A stretch of DNA of 29,010 nucleotides, taken from positions 1 to 29,010 of IMG/VR virus record IMGVR_UViG_3300035661_000269, one strand, 5' to 3'. The notes below the pieces were generated by a model that was given only the letters and a program-made list of their open reading frames with translations, did no database searches and was not told the origin of the DNA. Positions 2-25,717 of this stretch are shown here, piece after piece. Positions within the stretch are counted from its first letter, which is position 1, and every line of letters starts with the position of its first letter. The position numbers were made by a program, and so were the translations under genes. Source of the DNA: a virus.

Positions 2-988
2 GAAAGTTTCAGTGTCATTAAATTTATAGCTTCTGCTAACGGGGTTGAATATGATATTGCTTTACCAAGACGAGATTCAAAGAATCCTAACTCTACAAGC
101 AGACAAGATGCTATTATTGCCCAGTCTGACCCTTATATGCCTATTGAAGAAGATTTAAAACGTAGGGACTTTACCATTAATGCAATAGCAGTAAAATTAG
201 GCGAAGATGGCGAACTCATATTTATAGACCCATTTAGAGGGCAATTCAATATTAAAACTCAGTCAATTAAAATGGTTGACCCTTCTGCTTTCGTTGAAGA
301 CCCATTAAGATTGTTGCGGGCAATCCAATTCGCTGCCCGATTTGACTTTGGTATAGAGTTTAATACCTATGAAGCAATTAGACGACATAATTATTTGTTG
401 TTGGAAATTTCAGGTGAAAGAATACTTGAAGAGTTTTCAAAAGTGATTTCAAAAGATGCAAATATTAGTTTGTTTTTCAGATATTTGGAAAACACAGATA
501 TGATGTTGTTGCTTACTGGACATAAATATACTCCAAAGATTGAGATGTATGTTCCAAAAATTAAAACGCTGCCTGAATTATTGTTTTCAATGATTACCGT
601 TCATGGTATTACTGAGATTGCAGATTGGTGGAAACAAGCATTACCAATCTCAGTCGATATGTATAAAGAAATTAAAGCGTTAGAAAAATTAACAAAAGTA
701 GAAGACGATATTTTGGTTAGTAGAACTAACTTTTTCAATGCCTGCAAAATATGGCCCGCAATTAAAGGTAGTTTATTTACTGAGTTTAATCCGGAGTTCA
801 AAAAATTCCATGATGGCACCTATCCTACAAGCCTTAAGGACCTGAACGTACCAGGTGAACGTCTTATGGAAGAGTTTGGTTTAAAAGGTCCTGCTATGGG
901 GGAGGCATATAATAATATGTTGTTAGCAATCTTTGAAGATAAAGTCAATTATAAAAATACCGACGAACTTTTAAAATTCATAAAATGA
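2..988 (+). CDS. cca: tRNA nucleotidyltransferase / poly(A) polymerase family protein, 5' end cut by the window edge
   Basis: The frame is open from base 2, so the true start lies to the left; 328 codons are visible. The family adds CCA to tRNA 3' ends, or A tails to RNA. Visible family signatures are a short stretch VEYDIALPRR near the left edge, which fits the strand carrying the third catalytic carboxylate, then RRDFTINA about 30 residues later, an FIDPFRG turn, and EDPLRLLRAIQFAARF of the helical neck domain. The GS...DxD nucleotide-binding motif must lie outside the window. An ATG at 137 is internal to the conserved domain and is not the start. The stop overlaps the next ATG as ATGA at 985-988. 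Phage copies probably repair or mature phage or host tRNAs during infection, which is inference. CCA-adding versus poly(A) activity cannot be told from this fragment. Confidence 0.88.
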   Translation, partial: ESFSVIKFIASANGVEYDIALPRRDSKNPNSTSRQDAIIAQSDPYMPIEEDLKRRDFTINAIAVKLGEDGELIFIDPFRGQFNIKTQSIKMVDPSAFVEDPLRLLRAIQFAARFDFGIEFNTYEAIRRHNYLLLEISGERILEEFSKVISKDANISLFFRYLENTDMMLLLTGHKYTPKIEMYVPKIKTLPELLFSMITVHGITEIADWWKQALPISVDMYKEIKALEKLTKVEDDILVSRTNFFNACKIWPAIKGSLFTEFNPEFKKFHDGTYPTSLKDLNVPGERLMEEFGLKGPAMGEAYNNMLLAIFEDKVNYKNTDELLKFIK

Positions 989-9700: not shown

Positions 9701-10985
9701 TTGAATAAGTTTCATCTAAACCAGCTGCCTTTATTAATCTATACTCCATAAAAGTATTTGCGAAAGCAATATCTTCATCTGTACTGCTGCCATCTTTTAC
9801 ATAGAGTAAATTTTCATCTTGTAACCATTGTACAAAATCAATATCTGTTAATTCAGGATTAGTATCATTAATTGTGTTCTGAATATTATTAGTTACTATT
9901 CGTCTAGGCCAAGGTGTTGGGTTAATTGGACTTGGCGCTAACAACATATTAGCAATAGGACCTAAATTAAATTCATAATCGCTTAATATTGTCTTCGAAG
10001 GAGATAAAACAAACCCTGTATAGGAAACATCCAAACTATCTGTATAATTGATAAATTGGTCTGGAGTATAAATGCCTTCTACAACTATTTTATAACTATA
10101 TGGTCTACCATTATTTATAGTTGGGCTTTTTCTTACAATACCACCTGAGGTATAAGTAAAATTTAAAGTTAAAGGTTTGAGAGTTACCGCTTCTAATATC
10201 TCGAAAGTATTACTTGTTACATTTGTTGTTACAAAAACCTTATCGTTAATCTCAATGTCGGTGCCTATAATAACTGTACCTAATACTTCTTGGATATCTA
10301 TTACTTGCCCAACTAAATAACCATGGTTAGCAGTTGTAGTAACTCTAATGCTTGTGGAACCATTAATTATATTTGAAATACTAAACACCCCTGAACCATC
10401 ATACGGTGCGATTACCTTTTTTACCTGATATTCTATTCCGTTATTATCAAGTACTCTATAATTTGTCCAATCAATATCTTTTAAATCATCATTTACTTGA
10501 AAATTCCCGATATCTTTTATTGCTCCATCAGTGAATAAAAAAGAAGTTTCATTTTTTATAGTATCATTAAATACTTCTATTAAAGAAATGTTTAATGATG
10601 TATCTGCTATTAAAGTTTTATAAGGATAGTTCTCAATAATGTTCTTAATGTTGTAAGCAATTTCTGTATTCGCTGAACCAAAGAAAATATAATTACGCAT
10701 ATCTCTATAATCAACTAACAAAGTTGTAAGTTCATATAAAAACTTTTCAATAGTAACATCATCAAACTCAGAAGTATATTCTTCTGTTAATTGGTTTTTT
10801 AAAGAGTCTTTTATCTTTTTTAAAGTGTATGTTACTTTCTCCTGTTCGGCTTCTGTGGGCGTGTAGGTGATGTATTGGGGTACGTTTTTAAACACACCTC
10901 CAGGAGTTAATCCAGAATCAAAGAAAACAGAACTTTTAATACTATCTTGTCCTAGACCATTTTCTAATATAACTTTGCCTGCCAT
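6771..10985 (-). CDS. Large baseplate/tail protein with P2 gpI-like helix and laminin-G-like region
   Basis: The 1404-residue protein is the largest in the window. Regions in order: an N-terminal helical part (about 45-125); an FCCH-like beta domain at about 205-265 (TTTANHGYLVGQ, then TSNTFEI); a helical part at about 380-585 ending in LFYLYKTKGTHGTIQKIVSL, which matches the KGT-x-x-x-I pattern of P2 gpI-type tail proteins; a second FCCH-like domain near 760-830 (TTLLNHPYG, SIVVTGI); and a concanavalin/LamG-like stretch near 860-1010 (NHTLRLIYRAKYVEVYQDYKLIG). The rest is beta-rich. This mix suggests a baseplate wedge or tail-tip component that also binds glycans, which is inference. It starts in a TAATG junction with the GIY-YIG nuclease gene, whose own first residues resemble this protein's N-terminus. 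Confidence 0.82.
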   Translation of the reverse strand: MAGKVILENGLGQDSIKSSVFFDSGLTPGGVFKNVPQYITYTPTEAEQEKVTYTLKKIKDSLKNQLTEEYTSEFDDVTIEKFLYELTTLLVDYRDMRNYIFFGSANTEIAYNIKNIIENYPYKTLIADTSLNISLIEVFNDTIKNETSFLFTDGAIKDIGNFQVNDDLKDIDWTNYRVLDNNGIEYQVKKVIAPYDGSGVFSISNIINGSTSIRVTTTANHGYLVGQVIDIQEVLGTVIIGTDIEINDKVFVTTNVTSNTFEILEAVTLKPLTLNFTYTSGGIVRKSPTINNGRPYSYKIVVEGIYTPDQFINYTDSLDVSYTGFVLSPSKTILSDYEFNLGPIANMLLAPSPINPTPWPRRIVTNNIQNTINDTNPELTDIDFVQWLQDENLLYVKDGSSTDEDIAFANTFMEYRLIKAAGLDETYSNQLVRRAIPADVLSEINDTEDSYFQRFILIAGWLFDQMYVYIKFLKYVHHLNYTEFNQLSPEYYKLYAEHYGFDLFTDDSIDFSKLVIQTEPGLAYLLNGGVDVNNKYYRFTLKQIQEERQKRLLLSLFYLYKTKGTHGTIQKIVSLLGAPEGLLVFNEFAYHLTTSDAFDTFTKAKSGVKVINNEKISVPTYHFEIDPDYLINKTNITAAVNQPYVYKMRLHNESQINLREVSIKTDPNEAIDKQILNFFGKQKYSYVKFNNGEFANTQNESADYFALPLSFPDKYFGNTVTYMIPRGGYVKGVAQNLEETNVHLCSMYLIDSAKYKASATVTNVVLSNGNTTATITTLLNHPYGVVDSIVVTGINGIGNINGIEFPVFDAPNKKTIVIHGVFSGTYSNGGIMTVPNPLPLTKGFRYGYPMPENFSNYSVQPYLSIDNNPTTDFNLLQTKFPSVLTYTDQAPYVIVRLEGNDLVIRLRMDSENNGTNYCERVTICENVFTDDGLNHTLRLIYRAKYVEVYQDYKLIGLCSWKDPITNSLAIMYTAFDIPKKDIKNCTDTVIDVKNFCAPETNTGNDRIRWWDMFIGLPVNIDIYFNKVEVFENNAIDSFNVKDQIFNNNNYNSDTYSFEFGNTTADNTNKTSTDCTFNKALPNVSLSDYNYLLTIKTNTKNITVVKNLTLSSKSVKSNGTKFYDSIQQNFFTSQDVFQDFAWQKNLHETDTYKNFSGKLLDVYKLYSTQILTYNSLLSFLDLIENKFRGTIQQFLPVVVNIFEFGRNIKNSSFNVDKFQYIRAFSECPVSNGTTTSYITSKIFDKNQSNITSGLAIENNVTFSIELPASAGYILTATTVPWDPNKQNVLAAMAGVINAAATYPNVSASIVGDNFRIELDYKWIQDNYACDGNGVIFHFSDGTHNRSITFKGGALQTQFTCATLIKSIPKNVVLNPVYLYYDLEHQTDIVVYDDIEGISDDLIFIN

Positions 10986-11860
10986 TAAATATATTCAAAT
11001 TTAAATTGTTTTCTAAATAGCTTACTTGAACGTACATAACTAGCAATTGTATCACCAGATTTGTTATAAAAAAATCTATTTACTTCATTTGCACTCTCCC
11101 ATATTTTTTCTTCTCCTGTATAGATATTAATTTGTTTTACTTTTTTAGACCAAGACATTACTCCTTTTCTTCTATCTGAAATACTTTTTCTTAACTTCTC
11201 TGAACATATATAAAGTCCGTGTTTTTTTCTTGTTTCTGCAACTTTAGCTTTTCTTTCATCTGTGTGCTTAATGCCTTTATTCGATTGCGTAAAAAGAATG
11301 CTTACGTTATTTTTCATATACTCACTTCTTTTCTTTTTAAACTCATCGCTCATTCCTTTTCTTTTTCCTCTCATTTTGGTTTTCCATTCTTCGCAAATGG
11401 TTCTTCCTTTCAATGCTATACTAATTTTTTCTCTTACTTCTGGTCTTTTACTTACATTATTATCTCCCATTTGAGTTTTCATCGCAATTCTTAAATTTAC
11501 CAATTGTTTCTCTTTTATTTCGTTTGTTAAATTTACGCCATCTCCACCCAAAGTACCATTTGTCAATTTAAAACCCCATACTTTAAATTGACAAATCCAA
11601 TATTGTTCCCAAAATTGCCAATTAGAACTATCAACAAATTCTAATAATTCTATTTTAGGATATAAACCCTGTTTTAATAAAGAACTTATCCATTTTGTTC
11701 TATGAGTTGTTTGTTTATATTTAGCTAATTTTATATGTTGCTTTAATCTTTCATCTAATTCATGTATTGTTTTACCAATATATTTTGGTTCAGAAGTAAT
11801 TGGATGACTTAACATATAAATTTTTACTTGACCTAATCCGTCTTCGTTTACTATTGCCAT
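10985..11860 (-). CDS. GIY-YIG homing endonuclease with NUMOD motifs
   Basis: The 291-residue protein carries a GIY-YIG nuclease domain. K-I-Y at 13-15 stands in the GIY position, K-YIGKT at 26-31 in the YIG position, Arg38 is the likely catalytic Arg, and Glu85 in FWEQYWI is the likely metal-binding Glu. GGDG at 105-108 closes the domain. The middle has NUMOD3-type DNA-binding repeats (REKISIALKGR; KMRGKRKGMSDE). The end (KKVKQINIYTGEEKIWESAN onward) is NUMOD1-like. Such genes cut an allele lacking them and spread by repair. It sits between two structural genes with a one-base gap before it and TAATG after it, and it has no promoter of its own. Residues 1-11 (MAIVNEDGLGQ) resemble the start of the downstream protein (MAGKVILENGLGQ). 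Confidence 0.92.
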   Translation of the reverse strand: MAIVNEDGLGQVKIYMLSHPITSEPKYIGKTIHELDERLKQHIKLAKYKQTTHRTKWISSLLKQGLYPKIELLEFVDSSNWQFWEQYWICQFKVWGFKLTNGTLGGDGVNLTNEIKEKQLVNLRIAMKTQMGDNNVSKRPEVREKISIALKGRTICEEWKTKMRGKRKGMSDEFKKKRSEYMKNNVSILFTQSNKGIKHTDERKAKVAETRKKHGLYICSEKLRKSISDRRKGVMSWSKKVKQINIYTGEEKIWESANEVNRFFYNKSGDTIASYVRSSKLFRKQFKFEYI

Positions 11861-15790: not shown

Positions 15791-18442
15791 TTAATCTAAA
15801 ACTTCCCTACTACCCAAGTCTCTCAGTGTTTTTTCAACGTTTGATTTCACTTTAGATTCATTTAATCTTATTGCTGCTCTTGCTACTTCTATCTGTTTTT
15901 TACTAGCTTTTAATTTAGGGGTTAACTGTGCTAACTCCGCATCTATTTTTTTCGATAAAATACTTTCAATAGACTTTGCCTCAAACTGTAAATCTTTAAA
16001 TACATCATCTGCTGTATCCAAACCTTTCATTTTTGCCTTTTTCTTTTCTGGGTCTGGTTCTTCATAAAAACCATTTTCTTTTAATTGGTTTAGTTTCCAA
16101 ATTAATTTTTTCTCAATCATCTGATTTCTAAATGTCTGAGCAATTTCCTCATCAGAGAATTTTAAAATATTTCTTAAAACCTCTGTATAAGACATAATAG
16201 AAATACCACCACTATCGTCTAATGCTTTCTGGGCAGCATCCATTCTCAATCCTAACAACTCAAGTTTTGTCTTCTCTTTTAACGTAGAAGAATTATTCAT
16301 TTGAATTTCAAAGGATTGCATATCATCTTTACTGTATCCGTTTAAATGCAAATGCACTAATGCAATATGTAACAATCCTTCTATAAAATATGTTTGATAT
16401 TGAGATACCGCGTTATTAAACCTTAAATCTTCTTGCGATAATGCTGATTTATTACTGTTGTGTACAAAAATTGTAGAGTCTAATGCAAAGTTGTGATGCT
16501 CTTCAATCTCTAAGTCATAAACAAACTCAGGATGTTCTAATTCAAAAGTTTCATTTAATAAAACTGTAATTTCTGTATCGAATATATTTTTAATAGAATC
16601 TCCTACTACTAACTCATCTGCTCTTTTATATGTCATAGTAGAGGCCATTAAAAATGGGTGATTATCTGTACACTCAACAGATTTGCCATTTGATAAAGTT
16701 ACTCTATGCAACCAATCAACCTTTTTTGTTTGCTTACACCAAAGTATTTTACCATCTGTAACATAACCATATTCGTTACAAGATAAAGCATACATTTTTG
16801 CTGTCTCATTTTTTTCAAACGCAGCAGCAATATCTTTAATTGCTATTGTACCTTCGTTTGTTCTTACTAAAGTATCTTGTCTAAGACACAAATCTTCTTC
16901 AAAAGTCAAATAAGACTTAGGAATTAACAATCCTGCGAACAAATCATCTTTAATAATCTTGTAATCTTCAACCTGGTCAAGGTTACTAGCACCTTCTAAC
17001 ACAGATATATCTGATACATCACCCTCATAGGTAGGCAAATAATAATTCTCTTCAATTGAGATAGGATTATATTTAAAGTCAATCTCTCCTGTAGTAGGGT
17101 TAGTTAAAGGTTTCTTATGTAAATTCTTTTGAATCTCATTTGAATATCTTACCGCAGCATCTGGGTCCATACCAGTTGTATCAATCTTGTGTAACAACCT
17201 TTGTGGTGCTCTTACTATACGATAGATAACCAATGCTTCACGCATCAATACAATACGTCTCCATGTATCAACAATACTTCTTAAAATTGATTGTCCATAA
17301 GGTTCAGATTCAATATCTTCTACGTTTCTCCAATGCACTAACTCCCATGGTTCAAACTGAATGCCAGAACCGTAACCATGCCAGTGATATTTGAAATCAT
17401 CCAAGTTTTCTGAGTTATCCAACAATTGAATACGGATAGCTTCCGGAGGTAAATAAATTAAATCGGTTACACCCACACCCTTTCTTGCCTGTAAAAAAGA
17501 ATATGTGTTACCATACTTCAACATAGACCTTACCAAATGATAAGATTTACTGTTTAATTTTAAATTTCTATCAAAACACTCTTCTAAACATTGTTTTAGT
17601 CCTAAATCATCTGAAATGATTTTGATAATCTTACCATCTTCATCTTTATTACAGTTATGAACTACAACGTGGAATAAATCTGTTAATTTTATTGTAAAAT
17701 TATGATTAGGGAAAATATTTATTAAATCATAAACGTCCTGTTCTTCCTCACACTTTGTAATACTTAATATAGCAGTAGAATTAATTCTATCTTTTTTGCA
17801 ATTACAGCTTGGGTCAATCTCTTGGTAATAACTCATAATTAAATCACCAACCTTTAAATCGCCTAATTCTCTATATTGTTTATCTGCACATAAAATTTTA
17901 TGGTTTATTGTACATTTAAATTTAGCTACTTCTTTTTTATCAAACTCTTCCATATCCTTAGGGATATTTCTTGCTACAACTACTTCATATACCTCTTTTT
18001 TGCCATTATGTTTAATACCATGGCAAGTATTATAGGCAATTCTACCGGCTTCAATATCAAAAGCCTTAACTGAGAAATATAATTTCTTAACTGGGTCCTT
18101 TAAAACATCATCAATAGTTATATCTCCTCCTCCTACGTTTATAACGGTATCTCCTGTCACGCATATTTCCTGGCTATATAATCTTAAAGCCGCGTTAATA
18201 ATCGGGAAGGTCGAGTCCATACGGCGATATTCGTCATATAATTCAAGGTGTCTTAAATTCCAGTTCTTTGATTGCAGATATTGCCTGAAAACCTGAATCT
18301 GTTGTTTCTGGCGGCGGTCGTCTTGTGTTTGCGGAGAATTAAACACATTTATTTTGTCCGTACTAAAATTAATCAGGTCCTGATTCTGTACCCTTTTAAA
18401 AAAAGAGTTCACCTGGTTAAAAAATCCATCATTTTTTGCCAT
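15791..18442 (-). CDS. Portal protein (T4 gp20 type) interrupted by two inteins
   Basis: The 883-residue precursor is a myovirus portal protein, the dodecameric ring through which DNA enters the head. Extein parts are residues 1-93, 264-518 and 663-883, giving a 569-residue spliced protein, near the size of T4 gp20 (524). Family signatures include YRRMDSTFPIINAALRLYSQEI, the MLKYGNTY core, LPPEAIRIQ, WELVHWRN, PYGQSILRS, WRRIVLMREALVIYRI, RAPQR, and the SNKSALSQEDLRF junction. The C-terminal 120 residues are charged and helical. Two inteins, annotated separately, sit exactly at conserved extein positions. The gene has its own leader with a hairpin, a TATATTTAAA element and a TATAATA, and no Shine-Dalgarno sequence. 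Without splicing the reading frame would still be continuous, so this is not a frameshift. Confidence 0.95.
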   Translation of the reverse strand: MAKNDGFFNQVNSFFKRVQNQDLINFSTDKINVFNSPQTQDDRRQKQQIQVFRQYLQSKNWNLRHLELYDEYRRMDSTFPIINAALRLYSQEICVTGDTVINVGGGDITIDDVLKDPVKKLYFSVKAFDIEAGRIAYNTCHGIKHNGKKEVYEVVVARNIPKDMEEFDKKEVAKFKCTINHKILCADKQYRELGDLKVGDLIMSYYQEIDPSCNCKKDRINSTAILSITKCEEEQDVYDLINIFPNHNFTIKLTDLFHVVVHNCNKDEDGKIIKIISDDLGLKQCLEECFDRNLKLNSKSYHLVRSMLKYGNTYSFLQARKGVGVTDLIYLPPEAIRIQLLDNSENLDDFKYHWHGYGSGIQFEPWELVHWRNVEDIESEPYGQSILRSIVDTWRRIVLMREALVIYRIVRAPQRLLHKIDTTGMDPDAAVRYSNEIQKNLHKKPLTNPTTGEIDFKYNPISIEENYYLPTYEGDVSDISVLEGASNLDQVEDYKIIKDDLFAGLLIPKSYLTFEEDLCLRQDTLVRTNEGTIAIKDIAAAFEKNETAKMYALSCNEYGYVTDGKILWCKQTKKVDWLHRVTLSNGKSVECTDNHPFLMASTMTYKRADELVVGDSIKNIFDTEITVLLNETFELEHPEFVYDLEIEEHHNFALDSTIFVHNSNKSALSQEDLRFNNAVSQYQTYFIEGLLHIALVHLHLNGYSKDDMQSFEIQMNNSSTLKEKTKLELLGLRMDAAQKALDDSGGISIMSYTEVLRNILKFSDEEIAQTFRNQMIEKKLIWKLNQLKENGFYEEPDPEKKKAKMKGLDTADDVFKDLQFEAKSIESILSKKIDAELAQLTPKLKASKKQIEVARAAIRLNESKVKSNVEKTLRDLGSREVLD
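16457..16888 (-). other. Mini-intein 2 in the portal protein (residues 519-662)
   Basis: A 144-residue HINT splicing domain. Block A starts at Cys519 (CLRQDTLVRTNEGTI). Block B is ECTDNHPFLMA (His595 the expected catalytic His) followed by LVVGDSI. Blocks F and G are FVYDLEIEEHHNFALDS and IFVHN, ending in His661-Asn662, with Ser663 as the +1 residue. Splicing joins FEEDL to SNKSALSQED, a conserved stretch of T4-type portals. It is too short to hold an endonuclease. It uses a Ser at +1 where intein 1 uses Cys, so the two were probably acquired separately. Confidence 0.93.
17654..18163 (-). other. Mini-intein 1 in the portal protein (residues 94-263)
   Basis: A 170-residue HINT splicing domain. 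Block A begins at Cys94 (CVTGDTVINV). Block B has TINHKIL (His181 is the expected catalytic His) followed by LKVGDLI. Block F/G has VYDLI, HNF and FHVVVHN, ending in His262-Asn263, with Cys264 as the first extein residue. Splicing would join SQEI to CNKDEDGK, restoring the portal sequence. There is no homing endonuclease domain between blocks B and F, although a Cys-rich PSCNCKK loop at 211-217 is odd for the family. Positions were checked codon by codon: TGC at 18161-18163 and AAC at 17654-17656. Confidence 0.92.
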
Positions 18443-18966: not shown

Positions 18967-20646
18967 TTATAGTTGATTTACTTTTTTCCCAGTTAATCTA
19001 GTAATATATCTTACATAGTCATATCCTCCTGTATCCACCAAATAATCATATGCATCAAACCCTACTAAAAAACATGATTGCCCATTAAGTTCAGGTATCA
19101 TATTAATAGCATGGTCTATTGCTTCAATACTTTTTTCGTCTATTTTGATTAGATTTTTTAAAAAATAAAACGCTTCATCACTTAACATATCAATATTTGT
19201 TTCATATTGTCTAGGGATATTAGTTAATAAACCAGATGGTTTTCTATACCACATTGCATTCTTTGTTTCTTTCGAAAACGCAAACTTACAATACTCAGCA
19301 TCATATACTTTTTCAGGCGCAGGTTTTTTTATACCACCCAACATTCCATTACTAGAAATTCCACCACCAAAAGTTTCTTCTTTTAAAATAACTTTCTTAC
19401 CAGTATATTTTTCTAATAATTTAGTTAATATATTTACCTCGTTCTTTTTTATCATTGGTTTATTTTTCTTTGATTCAATTAATACAAACATTTCATCAAA
19501 CACATCATAAATATCCTCAGAAGCAATATTGATTTGAGGCAAAGCATAATACTCATTACCATTAGCACCTACTTCTTTACCAATTAATCCTTTACTTTCC
19601 ATGAACTCTAATGCCTTTGATATCACTTGCATCTCAGTTTTGTTTAATTTTTTGTCTGTTGTAGGAATGTAATAAACATCGTCTAATAATTTACTATGGA
19701 TGTATTTAGATGCTGCCAAAGCATTTGAACTTTGCCATTTTGCTCTATTGCTTTCTTTTAATGATTTTGATTCTCCCATTTGTTTACTTTTTGGATTTTC
19801 ACTTGCTATTTCTTCATCTGTCTTTGGATTCTCCATCTTTAAATTGCTATCAAATTTATTTACTCTGTATCTAGTATCTTTACCATTTACAGTTGGTTCT
19901 GTTTGACCGTCTTTTACAAACTTTTGTTTTTCTGTACCAGTATATTTAGAAAAGAATTCCGCACCTTCTGGAGTCATACCTGTGATTTGTATTTTTGCAT
20001 TAGGTCTACTCTGTCTTAATATATCAACCATCTTTGTTGCGATGGTTGCTCTCTTATATCCTGGTCTTACAGAAATTTTATCTATAAAAATTAAATCATC
20101 TGTAACCTCACCATCAGCCATAGCTAATATATGTTCTGTTCCTTTATAGTTTTTATTTTTCTTCCAAACATCTTTGATAGGTGCTGATTGAAAATCATAT
20201 CTTCTTTTAAAAGGAAACATTAATAAATCTATCTCACCATTCTGTGATGCTAACTTCTTTGCATTCTCAGCTGTGTCCATAAAATATATCCACATACTAC
20301 CTGCTGCATACATAAAGTTACTTTCCTTTGTTATAAATAGAACTATATTTTCTTCTACCTCATCAAGAGTTAAATTTTTTAACTCTTTCTCTCCACCAAA
20401 TACTTTCTTTCCCACTTTCTCAATATCAGGCATCTCATTTAAAGATTCTGCTTCTGGTAACACCTCACTGTTATTATTATTCATCCAGTTATTGATATAA
20501 TCCATATCATCTTCGTTCAAGAAATTACCTGAATCATCATCAGTTATATTGTCATATTCTTCAGTAGTCAATCCATATCCGCACTTAGCGCATCTTTCAT
20601 TCCTAATTGTTTTACCACAATCTGGGCAAAGTGTATAATTAGCCAT
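18967..20646 (-). CDS. Zinc-ribbon and GNAT-like protein carrying the LLEKYTGKKV tag
   Basis: Regions of this 559-residue protein in order: a zinc ribbon at the N-terminus (Cys7, Cys10, Cys19, Cys22); an acidic Asn-rich linker (30-75); a GNAT acetyltransferase-like domain at about 95-265, with FIDKISVRPGYKRATIATKM near 187-206 in the acetyl-CoA-loop position; a linker with SLKESN at 295-300; a helical domain; the shared tag LTKLLEKYTGKKVILKE at 407-423; and a C-terminal domain ending in ITRLTGKKVNQL, a half-copy of the tag. The GNAT loop lacks the usual G-x-G, so activity is uncertain. It joins the 479-residue gene by TAATG. Its place next to the portal and the tag suggest packaging into the head. 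Several (L/I)xE sites (SLNE 68-71, SLKE 295-298, LKE 421-423) could be protease targets. Confidence 0.78.
   Translation of the reverse strand: MANYTLCPDCGKTIRNERCAKCGYGLTTEEYDNITDDDSGNFLNEDDMDYINNWMNNNNSEVLPEAESLNEMPDIEKVGKKVFGGEKELKNLTLDEVEENIVLFITKESNFMYAAGSMWIYFMDTAENAKKLASQNGEIDLLMFPFKRRYDFQSAPIKDVWKKNKNYKGTEHILAMADGEVTDDLIFIDKISVRPGYKRATIATKMVDILRQSRPNAKIQITGMTPEGAEFFSKYTGTEKQKFVKDGQTEPTVNGKDTRYRVNKFDSNLKMENPKTDEEIASENPKSKQMGESKSLKESNRAKWQSSNALAASKYIHSKLLDDVYYIPTTDKKLNKTEMQVISKALEFMESKGLIGKEVGANGNEYYALPQINIASEDIYDVFDEMFVLIESKKNKPMIKKNEVNILTKLLEKYTGKKVILKEETFGGGISSNGMLGGIKKPAPEKVYDAEYCKFAFSKETKNAMWYRKPSGLLTNIPRQYETNIDMLSDEAFYFLKNLIKIDEKSIEAIDHAINMIPELNGQSCFLVGFDAYDYLVDTGGYDYVRYITRLTGKKVNQL
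19378..19434 (-). repeat. Shared peptide tag, copy in the 559-residue protein
   Basis: Encodes residues 405-423, core LLEKYTGKKV followed by ILKE. One of four related copies in different proteins (see the finding on the shared tag). Confidence 0.75.
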
Positions 20647-22085
20647 TAAAAAGAACTATAAATTAATTTATATGCTTCAATGCCATAAGTTGATTTTACT
20701 TGCTGCAACATTTCTTTTATAATTGCATTTCTTTCACTTATCATTTCTAGACTCAATACTTGTCCTCCACCGCTTGCTCGTAATATTGCTTTTATTTGTT
20801 TCATAGATTCTTCATCCCTTAAAAAACTCGCCAATTTAAGAGCCGATGCTGAGTTATTATTAATTGCTGTGTTATCTGCAATCTGAGATGCTAATATTTT
20901 TACATCTTCTGGAATAGAAGATTTGCTACTACCACCTATTGACCTATCAGAATATTGTTTTGAAGATGGGTCATCACCATATCTATCATCACTATCGTCA
21001 TCATATCTATTTTCCTTTAGTTTAACAGATTCATTTCTTTGAGTTTTGCCTTTTAAATAAGCATCTGCATTTCTTTGAGTTATTGCTGCATCATTACAAA
21101 TTTCTAAAGTATATCCATCATTACTTTTATAAATCCATTTTGTATTTGGGTCAAATTCAGGACCAGTACTATTCTCAAAATTAAAAATCTTACTTCCACC
21201 TTTTGGGCTTCTCAAATTATATGAGGTTGCAAAAGGAATATATTTTTCGCTTCCAGAAAATGTCTGAGTACTTTTATCATATGTTAATTTTGCTTTAACA
21301 AAATCTAGATTGTTTGCCTCTTTTAATGATTTTTTATTTCTGATTACTGATTCATTTCTTTTATTAGTTGGGCCTAACCATCTTTGAAGTTTTTCTATAG
21401 TATCTCCTAAACTTGATTGGTCTAAATCTAATTCATCAGAAACAAAACCCCAACGGTCATAAGAAATATGTGCTGTTTCATTTCCGCCTTTAACAACTAT
21501 CATCTTTTCATTACCATCCCATTTTTCTTTTGCATACTCTCCATTATCCATCTGGCATTGAACACCTAATTTTTGTAATCGCTTAAGTAGGAAAGCATTA
21601 TTTTTAATAATCTCATCTGATGTTGGACCTGCACCACCTTTGTAAGGTCTATATCCTTCTCTTAATACAACTTTTTTGCCAGTATATTTTTCTAGCAAAC
21701 GGCTGAGCATATCAATCTGCTTTGATTCAACTATAGTATACTCTCCACGTAAGGTTCTTTCGGCCTCTCTTTTACAATCACCCAAACTCATTTTCATTCC
21801 TGAACCTGCGTTCTTCTTATTATATTCATAGGCTTCTTTACCTTCCTCTGCTACTTTTTTAGCAAAGTCTTTTTTACTTATTTTAGGCTTCTCAGCTTCT
21901 TTAATAGATTTTTTCATTAGTTTTTCAATTCTTATTTTTAAAATACCTTTTCCGTTTATAGTGGGTAAACCATGTTCATCTTCTCCTATCTCTTTCACAA
22001 CTTCTTTATGGTTTTTCCATTTTCCCGTAAGTATAACGTCCCCAATATTCACGGGAATATTAATTCCATCTTTATTTTTAGACAT
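20646..22085 (-). CDS. Probable internal-head/accessory protein with a GDxILTGK N-terminus and the shared tag
   Basis: A 479-residue protein with no enzyme signature. The N-terminus (PVNIGDVILTGKWKNHKEVV, then HGLPTINGK and ILKIRIEKLM) matches a small beta domain common in T4-like phage proteins near the capsid genes, usually as GDTILTGRFKNK. Residues 123-143 hold the shared tag, core LLEKYTGKKV then VLRE. NESV-x(n)-LKE occurs twice, at 244-256 and 351-358, the first followed by AN and a small domain. The C-terminus is Ser/Asp-rich then helical. The start overlaps the end of the GIY-YIG nuclease gene by eight bases; the end is a TAATG junction with the 559-residue gene. It is best viewed as a processed internal protein, by inference. 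Confidence 0.75.
   Translation of the reverse strand: MSKNKDGINIPVNIGDVILTGKWKNHKEVVKEIGEDEHGLPTINGKGILKIRIEKLMKKSIKEAEKPKISKKDFAKKVAEEGKEAYEYNKKNAGSGMKMSLGDCKREAERTLRGEYTIVESKQIDMLSRLLEKYTGKKVVLREGYRPYKGGAGPTSDEIIKNNAFLLKRLQKLGVQCQMDNGEYAKEKWDGNEKMIVVKGGNETAHISYDRWGFVSDELDLDQSSLGDTIEKLQRWLGPTNKRNESVIRNKKSLKEANNLDFVKAKLTYDKSTQTFSGSEKYIPFATSYNLRSPKGGSKIFNFENSTGPEFDPNTKWIYKSNDGYTLEICNDAAITQRNADAYLKGKTQRNESVKLKENRYDDDSDDRYGDDPSSKQYSDRSIGGSSKSSIPEDVKILASQIADNTAINNNSASALKLASFLRDEESMKQIKAILRASGGGQVLSLEMISERNAIIKEMLQQVKSTYGIEAYKLIYSSF
21657..21719 (-). repeat. Shared peptide tag, copy in the 479-residue protein
   Basis: Encodes residues 123-143, core LLEKYTGKKV followed by VLRE then GYRP. Confidence 0.75.
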
Positions 22086-22971
22086 TATTAGTTTTTTTAC
22101 AAGAACATTTTTTAGAACAATATCTTTTTATATACTTAGTTGTATTTTTACTACTTCGTAAAAATATCAATGTAAATACATTATCGCAATTTAGACATTT
22201 TTGTAAAATCTCTATCCTTTCTTTAGTTAACGTTTTACTAGTTTTTTCTCTTTGCTCTGTTGAAATTATTTTACCTTTATGAATATTCCTCATTTTTAAA
22301 ATACTGCTTTCTGAATGCTTTCTTCCTGTCTGAGACATACTCATTTTCTCTTTTGTTTCTTTTGAATGTAAAACTAACTTTTTTCTAGAACCATTTTTAT
22401 ATTCTAACTTTAATCTATCAGAAATTTTCTTACGAGTCGAATCTGTACATATTTGATACTTACTTTTCTCTTTTATTTTTTGCTTAGTAACGTTGCTTAA
22501 AGATTTACCTACTCTAGCGTCACTCATTTTAAATAAGGTCTCTTCTGAATATACATCTTTTCTACCTTTATTCCATGGTACTCGACTTACTTTATCATAA
22601 GATTCTTTTATTCTATTGCAACTTATATCAGATAATTTAAAATCTCTAATTCCGCCCGTTTTTAAATTGTAAGTGTCCTTTCTATTTACCCATTCTTCGT
22701 CAACGTAGAATTTTTCTTTTTCAATCATATCTTCTTTCGTAATACAATACTCAAGTATTTCTTTTTTAAAGTTGTGTTTACCATATTTTTTTATTGCTTT
22801 TATCATAGAATTTCCAGAACCCAAATACCCATCACCAATGTCTTTTGTTTGATGGAAACCTCTGTATTTCTTTCCATTAATTAAATTCGTGGTTTCATAT
22901 ATTAAAAACAATTCCTGTAATTTCTTACCAGTTAAAATTGTATCTCCTTTATTGATGTCTAGTTTTATCAT
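22078..22971 (-). CDS. GIY-YIG-type homing endonuclease with NUMOD3 repeats and C-terminal zinc finger
   Basis: The 297-residue protein has a variant GIY-YIG domain: LIYETTN at 23-29, KKYRGFHQT at 34-42, and DGYLGSGNSMIKAIKKYG at 47-64, the form found in phage Seg-like nucleases. MIEKEKFY at 82-89 supplies the likely catalytic Glu. NUMOD3-like DNA-binding repeats follow (DARVGKSLSN, RKHSESSILKMR). A C-terminal Cys cluster (CLNC, YCSKKC) is a probable zinc finger. The start overlaps the 221-residue gene's TGA as ATGA; the end overlaps the 479-residue gene by eight bases; there is no separate promoter. Residues 1-16 (MIKLDINKGDTILTGK) resemble the beginning of the downstream protein (VNIGDVILTGK). 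Confidence 0.88.
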   Translation of the reverse strand: MIKLDINKGDTILTGKKLQELFLIYETTNLINGKKYRGFHQTKDIGDGYLGSGNSMIKAIKKYGKHNFKKEILEYCITKEDMIEKEKFYVDEEWVNRKDTYNLKTGGIRDFKLSDISCNRIKESYDKVSRVPWNKGRKDVYSEETLFKMSDARVGKSLSNVTKQKIKEKSKYQICTDSTRKKISDRLKLEYKNGSRKKLVLHSKETKEKMSMSQTGRKHSESSILKMRNIHKGKIISTEQREKTSKTLTKERIEILQKCLNCDNVFTLIFLRSSKNTTKYIKRYCSKKCSCKKTNNV

Positions 22972-23633
22972 TTACCGCCTGCTTTAGAAATTTTATCCTC
23001 TTCTCCTGGTGGTACAGCATCAACTAAATAGACAGAAGTCCTATTATATAATTGTGCTTCCTTTTCCTCATAAGACGCTTGTAGGTTATTAATAAAAGAT
23101 TTTATGTTTGTAGGGTTTCTATTGATTTTTCTATTCCAAGAATTTCCTATTTCTAATGTATACCCAAAGTAACTAATTAAATCCTCTAAAGTACCAACCA
23201 CATATCTTGTTCTATCGTTTCTAGTTCCATCAACTTTTTTAACTATAAAAGTTTTTGGTGCTTTTGGTTTTCTTTTAAAAGATGAACCTGTTCCTCCCAT
23301 ACCTGAAAAACTTTTTCTATTTGCAAGATTTACCGAAGCTCTACCTGCCTCATCATCTTCGCTTTTAGTAGGTCCAAAAGAATGTACTTCATCTTCTGCC
23401 AACACAACCTTTTTACCTGAATATTTTTCTAATAATTTAGTTAAAGCCTTTAATTGCTTTGCTTCTTCCATTTTATTCATAGGAAATCTTTTTATAAATT
23501 CTTGATATTCCACATCAGGGTCTATTCTTTGTTTAGACCCATATTTTTGTATAAGGAACTTTACAAAATTTAATCTTCTGTTTGAATATTCATCAATTGC
23601 GTGTGCCTGTACATCAGACAAATGAGACATCAT
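22968..23633 (-). CDS. Probable internal-head/accessory protein with the shared tag, 221 residues
   Basis: N-terminal helices (1-55, DEYSNRRLNFVKFLIQKYG) lead into the tag at 61-80 (LTKLLEKYSGKKV then VLAE). A Gly/Ser/Lys-rich linker (85-125) follows. The C-terminal domain (about 127-204) holds YVVGTLEDLISYFGYTLEIG and INRNPTNIKSFINNL, a small domain seen in other myophage proteins but with no assigned function that I know. The start is ATGATG, preceded by a 38-base gap without a Shine-Dalgarno sequence; the second ATG is an equally good start. It ends as ATGA with the homing endonuclease. Confidence 0.74.
   Translation of the reverse strand: MMSHLSDVQAHAIDEYSNRRLNFVKFLIQKYGSKQRIDPDVEYQEFIKRFPMNKMEEAKQLKALTKLLEKYSGKKVVLAEDEVHSFGPTKSEDDEAGRASVNLANRKSFSGMGGTGSSFKRKPKAPKTFIVKKVDGTRNDRTRYVVGTLEDLISYFGYTLEIGNSWNRKINRNPTNIKSFINNLQASYEEKEAQLYNRTSVYLVDAVPPGEEDKISKAGGK
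23394..23453 (-). repeat. Shared peptide tag, copy in the 221-residue protein
   Basis: Encodes residues 61-80, core LLEKYSGKKV followed by VLAE then DEV. Confidence 0.75.
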
Positions 23634-24613: not shown

Positions 24614-25351
24614 TTATTTAGTTGTTGTGTTTAATAGTTCTTCTTTTAAAACATTTCCTGATTTAATATCAATTACTAATATTCTAACAGGTTTTAAAAG
24701 ATTTGCTGTTTCTTTAATCTTTAAATATTGTTTATTATTTATCTTTTTCAATAATGAATACGTGTACGTAGATTTAACCTCTATATACTCATCTTCAAAC
24801 TCAAAATCAGGTGAGTAAAATCCATACTTAGTACAAACCGTCCTTGCTTTAATAGGCAACTCTTTATTTTCTTTAATTAATCCTTCTATATATAATCTTT
24901 CACAATTACCTTGACAATTTAATCCGTTTATGTTAAACCATTTATTGTATGATTGTTTCTTTTGTAATTGTTCTAATTTATCAGGATTATTTTTATAAAA
25001 TTCAAGTCTGCTTGCAGTTGTCCTTATTTGAATTTCTAATTTTTCTTTCTCTGATTTGTTATGAAGAAATCCTCCTTTCTCTTTATGTAATATACTTAAT
25101 CTTTGATTTTTACATTTCTGACAAATAGTATTATCTCTTAATCCTGAAGCACAATCATACTTTGATTTATATTCTATAATCTCAAAACAATCTTTATTGC
25201 TACACTTCTTAGATAAAATATTTGGTAACTCTTTATTTTTCTTACAGTTAGTACAACTGGAATTCATCTTTTTATGATATCTATATTTATCATAATTATT
25301 ATATTCAATGATAACGCCACACTCAGGGCAATCTCTAACTAAACTTCTCAT
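24614..25351 (-). CDS. Zinc-finger PD-(D/E)XK nuclease, probable homing endonuclease
   Basis: The N-terminal 85 residues carry Cys pairs of successive zinc-binding knuckles: C8/C11 with C33/C36, and C50/C55 with C77/C80. A basic helical linker follows, then another pair at C146/C150. The catalytic region is at 150-195: ERLYIEGLI, then GFYSPDFEFEDEYIEVKST, in which Asp182 and Glu191-Val-Lys193 form the PD-(D/E)XK core. A late helix and IKSGNV strand close the fold. Such zinc-finger nucleases in phage structural blocks are usually mobile homing enzymes; a DNA-repair or Vsr-like role is the alternative. Unlike the two GIY-YIG genes it has its own leader with a promoter-like motif and a hairpin, and no N-terminal mimic of its neighbour. 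Confidence 0.83.
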   Translation of the reverse strand: MRSLVRDCPECGVIIEYNNYDKYRYHKKMNSSCTNCKKNKELPNILSKKCSNKDCFEIIEYKSKYDCASGLRDNTICQKCKNQRLSILHKEKGGFLHNKSEKEKLEIQIRTTASRLEFYKNNPDKLEQLQKKQSYNKWFNINGLNCQGNCERLYIEGLIKENKELPIKARTVCTKYGFYSPDFEFEDEYIEVKSTYTYSLLKKINNKQYLKIKETANLLKPVRILVIDIKSGNVLKEELLNTTTK

Positions 25352-25426: not shown

Positions 25427-25717
25427 TTAAAATCTTTTTGGTAAACCTGCTGCTTTATTGTAGTTGTCTGTTGGAATCTCTTCACCGTTTCTAACCCATT
25501 GATAAAAATCTTTTACAAAAAATTCTATATCTGCTTGTTCTGACATAGGGTTTATTATAGAAATATATTTATCAACCTTTTGATGTAATGCTGCTTGAAC
25601 TTTTCTTATACCAGCTTTACCAATGTAATCTTCTTTTATCAATTCAACCTTTTTACCAGAATATTTTTCTAGCAATTCAGTGAGTGCTAGAACTTTTTTA
25701 TTTTTTTCCATTGCCAT
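25427..25717 (-). CDS. Small head/accessory protein carrying the shared tag at its N-terminus
   Basis: In this 96-residue protein the tag occupies residues 9-29 (LTELLEKYSGKKV, then ELIKE), so it is almost at the N-terminus, as would be expected of a targeting propeptide. After the putative cleavage point comes DYIGKAGIRKVQAALHQKVD and a helical C-terminal region (FFVKDFYQWVRNGEEIP). This is the simplest protein bearing the tag. The start at 25717 lies directly after a hairpin and T-rich stretch, with no Shine-Dalgarno sequence; a second ATG two codons on is equally possible. No family is recognised. Confidence 0.72.
   Translation of the reverse strand: MAMEKNKKVLALTELLEKYSGKKVELIKEDYIGKAGIRKVQAALHQKVDKYISIINPMSEQADIEFFVKDFYQWVRNGEEIPTDNYNKAAGLPKRF
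25631..25693 (-). repeat. Shared peptide tag, copy in the 96-residue protein
   Basis: Encodes residues 9-29, core LLEKYSGKKV followed by ELIKE then DY. Confidence 0.75.

Follow-up and report, generated by a model that had tools for sequence, protein, structure and literature searches.

How did the gene of a phage portal protein come to carry two in-frame inserts, and would they be removed from its product? The question is raised by a 29,010-base IMG/VR fragment (the window, i.e. the whole stretch of DNA analysed), in which positions 15791-18442 of the minus strand encode a stop-free precursor of 883 aa. The ORF was matched by Portal_T4 (PF07230, E=1.7e-48) and by the PHROG portal family (E=2.8e-45), and the PF07230 match together with the alignment to gp20 assigns it to the T4-type portals (gp20). 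Intein_splicing (PF14890), which belongs to the evidence for the second insert, was detected in the same ORF with E=4.4e-15 and 56.3 bits (cut-off 35.8).

From its N-terminus, the minus-strand gene consists of extein 1 (portal residues 1-93; 18164-18442), mini-intein A (170 aa; 17654-18163), extein 2 (portal residues 94-348; 16889-17653), mini-intein B (144 aa; 16457-16888) and extein 3 (portal residues 349-569 and the stop; 15791-16456). Extein 2 was delimited by portal alignment, and exteins 1 and 3 by alignment with intein-free portals. Intein A corresponds to residues 94-263 of the precursor, with the junctions SQEI/CVTGDT...VVVHN/CNKD, and intein B to residues 519-662, with the junctions FEEDL/CLRQDT...FVHN/SNKS (slashes mark the splice points). 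The predicted spliced joins are SQEI-CNKDEDGK at A and FEEDL-SNKSALSQEDLR at B. The initial annotation, in which mini-inteins of 170 and 144 aa were described in one portal, was right in every number and coordinate; the range that it gave, 16457-18163, begins with the last base of B and closes with the first base of A.

Both inserts have Cys at position 1 of block A (CVTGDT in A, CLRQDT in B), Thr-x-x-His in block B (TINH and TDNH, respectively) and a terminal His-Asn followed by the +1 nucleophile, HN/C in A and HN/S in B. The complete splicing residues and the different +1 residues, Cys and Ser, had been noted before and were read again at the junctions. The AlphaFold2 models of A and B showed the HINT fold with mean pLDDT values of 87.6 and 85.5, respectively, and the best PDB match of each in Foldseek was the Ssp DnaB mini-intein. 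No endonuclease family was matched by Pfam in either insert, which supports the earlier statement that these mini-inteins cannot home by themselves. The joined exteins form a continuous homologue of intein-free portals. Judged by sequence, A and B are class-1 inteins, predicted to be splicing-competent. Assignment to class 3 was rejected since both carry Cys1, and a split intein with a freestanding endonuclease (Dassa type) was rejected since the portal is a single continuous ORF.

It is highly probable that A and B are two class-1 mini-inteins that entered a hotspot gene in separate invasions, as HNH homing inteins whose endonuclease was later deleted, and that they were retained, with splicing kept, because the portal is essential. 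In each of these two invasions, the endonuclease of an HNH-endonuclease homing intein would have been lost and the HINT splicing fold preserved. Each intein would then remove itself post-translationally by an acyl shift at Cys1, transfer to Cys+1 or Ser+1, and cyclisation of Asn assisted by the penultimate His. The product would be a portal of 569 aa, which makes up the head vertex, and splicing would have to be complete before the ring is assembled and DNA is packaged.

Apart from the window, IMG/VR contains seven distinct members of this portal clade, four of them intein-bearing and three without inteins. L004 contains intein A and a B-type mini-intein six codons downstream of site B (B+6), L005 (identical to L006) contains A and B, and L010 contains a mini-intein at A, a full-length HNH intein at a third site, C, and a mini-intein at B. 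In L018 (3402-8918), one portal ORF of 1838 aa includes full-length HNH inteins at A, C and B; they are 429, 406 and 425 aa long, so that intein exceeds portal in that ORF. Site A of the window is thereby shared with L004, L005, L010 and L018, and site B with L005, L010, L018 and L063. The full-length inteins at the same sites as A and B are 408-429 aa long with an HNH motif, and HNH_3 was matched in the L018 A intein and in L063. The portals of L007/L009, L008 and L011 are free of inteins and have 571-577 aa, which fits the spliced size of 569 aa expected earlier from removal of A and B. The comparison of portal alleles that had been proposed resulted in clade portals with two, three or no inteins. 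Recurrence at identical sites in independent contigs (L004, L005/L006, L010, L018), together with the uninterrupted L007, L008 and L011, excludes chance inserts.

The +1 Cys of the A-bearing portals is Val in the intein-free members, and the +1 Ser of B is found in all portals of the clade, intein-free ones included. The portals of the window, L004, L005 and L010 group as a clade in the portal tree (100/99). L018 falls with the intein-free members, so that inteins were gained or lost inside the portal clade, although a single clade of all intein-bearing portals was disfavoured only marginally (p=0.06).

In the full-length site C intein of L010 (4207-8325), Ala or Ser instead of Cys apparently follows VLPV, and a block F Cys (VYCM) is present; by these residues it may belong to a non-canonical class. 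VYCM also occurs in the site C intein of L018. Intein-like domains outside the portal were observed in the records of L004 (G001:89749-90117), L018 (G004:21706-22683) and L043 (G006:29910-30881), in ORFs of 838, 647 and 556 aa, respectively. The search of genome contigs by portal alignment gave no relative as a cellular source, and intein A had no match in cultured phages. The 60 T4-type portals of cultured phages sampled across 2386 matches were uninterrupted over the matched part, which mostly covers residues ~215-370 or more and usually leaves site A outside.

Further intein-bearing portals were reached by scanning with the two inteins as queries. A total of 45 inteins were delimited in 24 T4-type portal genes of uncultured phages, with up to three per gene. 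The main set comprises 41 inteins with junctions set by hand, in 22 portal genes and at 15 positions; the published genomes of two huge phages contribute four more inteins, one at site A in LR756511 and three in LR756508, and with them three further positions. Since sites in divergent portals can be placed only to within one or two residues, the number of positions is about 15-18. When loci were recovered by portal motif only, 8 of 27 IMG/VR loci (7 distinct viruses) had portal inteins, and on this proportion, inteins will often break up the portal genes of uncultured phages when these are annotated automatically. The inteins fall into two length classes: those of 139-173 aa have no endonuclease, and those of 297-488 aa mostly carry HNH_3, with LAGLIDADG at two positions. 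Two site A inteins of 232 aa each lie between the classes. The tree of the 41 inteins clusters by site, with 16 changes compared to a mean of 30.2 after shuffling (0 of 200 shuffles were as low). A and B are located in different parts of this tree, which supports their earlier reading as separate acquisitions. The T4-type portal of uncultured phages is an intein hotspot; no earlier report of such a hotspot was found in the part of the literature covered by the search. In the portal L142 of LR756508 (a phage of 484 kb), one of the three inteins, of ~139 aa, apparently starts with His (LCL/HEQSR), indicating an unusual N-terminal junction or class.

The mini-inteins at A form one clade (100/99). 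All four sequences share the scar motif DP[SA]CxC, which occupies the place of the HNH domain in the full-length A intein of L018, and all four also keep a Cys ahead of TxxH. By path, the L018 intein is nearest to these mini-inteins, and a single clade uniting it with them is not rejected (AU p=0.47). The B mini-inteins of this portal clade likewise form one clade (100/100), and four B-type mini-inteins of the clade share a scar of their own. B-type inteins as a whole use the registers 0, +1, +3 and +6. A single clade of all register-0 B inteins was rejected (p=1.4e-4), whereas the B mini-inteins plus L018 as a clade (p=0.22) and the register-0 mini-inteins as a clade of their own (p=0.42) were not. 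On the first two of these values, the B mini-inteins may derive from full-length inteins of the same site, which is a weaker point of the preferred reading. The six-codon shift of L004 lies inside the register-0 clade in the best tree. Register and clade do not coincide, which means that the loop was invaded again or that inteins moved between registers; the trees demonstrate a minimum of one register change, in either direction.

An intermediate stage was found at the third site in a distant clade. The site C intein of L033, 173 aa long, retains the start of the HNH endonuclease segment, and a short VV repeat (VV/VSVE) marks the point where this remnant is fused to the C-terminal part of the splicing domain. 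From its sequence, the L033 intein gives a direct picture of an in-frame endonuclease deletion. Phe replaces His ahead of its terminal Asn. L022 has no intein, and the loci (L033 4713-6917, L022 4713-6398) are 97.6% and 99.0% identical in the flanks of the insertion and ~98% identical over 10 kb; apart from the intein, the two portals differ by one residue in 562. The junction has four substitutions in a stretch of five bases, a cluster with a chance probability of 3.5e-6. They resemble co-conversion, in which recombination carries the flanks of the donor along, and the difference between the loci would be either a gain in L033 or a replacement in L022. The same-site full-length HNH inteins and the intermediate at site C sustain the earlier suggestion that the mini-inteins are relics. 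The intein life cycle can thus be seen in one virion gene, from full-length HNH inteins through a form whose endonuclease is truncated to mini-inteins, and alleles without any insert occur as well.

Dependence on freestanding nucleases nearby, which had been offered together with the relic reading, was not supported. The three candidates in the window, all on the minus strand, are GIY-YIG or unclassified: a homing-endonuclease-like gene (nuclease 1; 10985-11860; phrog_314, E=4e-9), a GIY-YIG homing endonuclease with NUMOD3 (22078-22971; phrog_314, E=3e-37) and a nuclease-like gene adjoining the tail-tube gene (nuclease 3; 24614-25351; no family above the cut-off). In the three records compared, homologues of nucleases 1 and 3 were found in G001 only, that of nuclease 3 likewise by the tail tube, and partial homologues of the GIY-YIG gene in G002 and G003 only. 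None of the three is present in every mini-intein-bearing relative, the records being fragments, and L005/L006 have A and B without homologues of nucleases 1 and 3. As the homologues do not track the inteins, trans-homing by these nucleases was rejected as an explanation.

The broader proposal, that the mini-inteins still spread with an endonuclease supplied in trans by a same-site full-length intein of a co-infecting phage or by a freestanding nuclease, is unlikely, although several results point towards mobility. Full-length alleles exist at the same sites in relatives, and the ~98% identical L022 and L033 differ by one mini-intein with a co-conversion-like junction. Intein B and the B+6 mini-intein of L043 are 42% identical, compared to 29% for their portals, and within the clade the portals are mostly at least as similar as the inteins. 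Since the L043 intein is closer than its portal, simple vertical descent for all inteins was ruled out and horizontal transfer must have occurred at some time. However, the transfer of B is possibly older than the endonuclease loss, and the identities of intein A parallel those of the portals within the clade, as under vertical descent; those of intein B follow them less well. Two past invasions followed by endonuclease loss remain the preferred reading.

Aligned to T4 gp20, B, B+1 and B+6 correspond to positions 391, 392 and 397. Site B of the window is therefore in the loop equivalent to the gp20 tunnel loop (374-398), which narrows and gates the DNA channel, 28 A wide (PMC4493910). Within the domain limits of the same source, site 320 maps to gp20 358 in the channel loop (350-359) and site C to gp20 329 in the clip domain. 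Because unspliced inserts at these sites would block the DNA channel, and insert B is in the loop that lines it, splicing must presumably come before ring assembly and packaging. That the HINT domains are inactive and stay as domains of the virion portal is scarcely credible. The Phe of the related L033 intein is in line with such a loss, but no A or B mini-intein of these divergent phages has lost Cys1, TxxH, the terminal His-Asn or the +1 nucleophile, and the channel would be filled if each of 12 subunits kept a domain of 144 aa in its tunnel loop.

The location of B, B+1, B+3 and B+6 in the tunnel-loop equivalent, which would leave an unspliced ring with scarcely any passage for DNA, also bears on a second proposal. 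It takes up the earlier suggestion of assembly conditional on cell state: the inteins would be retained as a switch in which redox-, metal- or temperature-dependent splicing makes portal maturation and head assembly conditional. DP[SA]CxC and the Cys before TxxH are retained in four of four A mini-inteins, and in the two-intein DnaB of M. smegmatis one intein is inhibited by oxidation (PMC6195587). However, a few conserved Cys in four sequences are weak evidence, three relatives manage without any intein, and the L022/L033 pair indicates that the intein is dispensable in that clade. Insertion into a conserved loop is also expected from the preference of endonucleases for conserved sequence. 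Such a switch is very improbable. The related idea, that the tunnel-loop inteins act as an assembly checkpoint, with the CxC of intein A conferring redox or metal sensitivity and the mini-inteins kept for function after the loss of homing, is improbable as well; if true, the precursor would have no usable DNA channel until splicing.

Constraint by the host protein is probably enough to explain retention. Since an essential portal would tolerate loss of the insert only through a precise deletion, selection would preserve splicing, and mini-inteins would persist without homing. In comparison with L004, dN/dS values of 0.43/1.46 for A and 0.48/1.81 for B were obtained, a rough guide with synonymous sites near saturation; no stops were present and all splicing residues were kept. 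The low dN relative to dS and the kept residues fit constraint from an essential host protein, with no need for a function of the inteins. Two questions are made testable by these loci: the continued spread of endonuclease-free inteins, and the effect of inteins in the DNA-gating loop on head assembly.

Elsewhere in the window, a motif of ~20 aa, LTxLLEKY[TS]GKKVxL, occurs in four different proteins as DNA repeat family D1 (19373-19456, 21652-21735, 23389-23472 and 25629-25712, minus strand), each copy being followed by [LI]xE (LKE, LRE, LAE and IKE). By resemblance, it is a candidate peptide for capsid targeting that carries a prohead protease site of the T4 type. A phage-encoded CCA-adding tRNA nucleotidyltransferase-like gene was observed at 137-988 (plus strand), and no tRNA was detected in the window by ARAGORN.

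Portal inteins have been recorded in mycobacteriophages (PORT, cluster C1; Kelley et al. 2016, PMC5050341). They are likewise inserted in a phage portal, which does not imply the same site; two endonuclease-less inteins in one T4-type portal and the many sites are features of the present set, none being found for mycobacteriophages in the sections of that paper covered here. Two dissimilar inteins also interrupt DnaB of M. smegmatis, but DnaB is a cellular helicase and its DnaBi1 is a class-3 intein with demonstrated redox control, whereas A and B are class 1 by sequence (PMC6195587). Prp8 is, similarly, an essential protein invaded at many sites with inteins clustering by site; it is eukaryotic and has 7 sites, compared to ~15-18 in T4-type portals, where several registers are used in one loop (PMC6805012). 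In crAss-like phages, two inteins (Hint-Hop) are present in one packaging gene, which encodes the terminase TerL and not the portal, and the inserts there were found mainly via their endonuclease domains (PMC7886860). The Ssp DnaB mini-intein (1mi8, 6frh) and other mini-inteins are alike in size and predicted fold (TM 0.66-0.85 by normalisation), although the Ssp DnaB mini-intein is only ~20% identical to A and B and resides in another host protein. The window contains an element of a kind already known, most likely with an ordinary mechanism, but in a setting richer than could be seen from its sequence alone: the sites are many, endonuclease loss is represented as a series of stages, and one pair of alleles differs by the presence of an intein.
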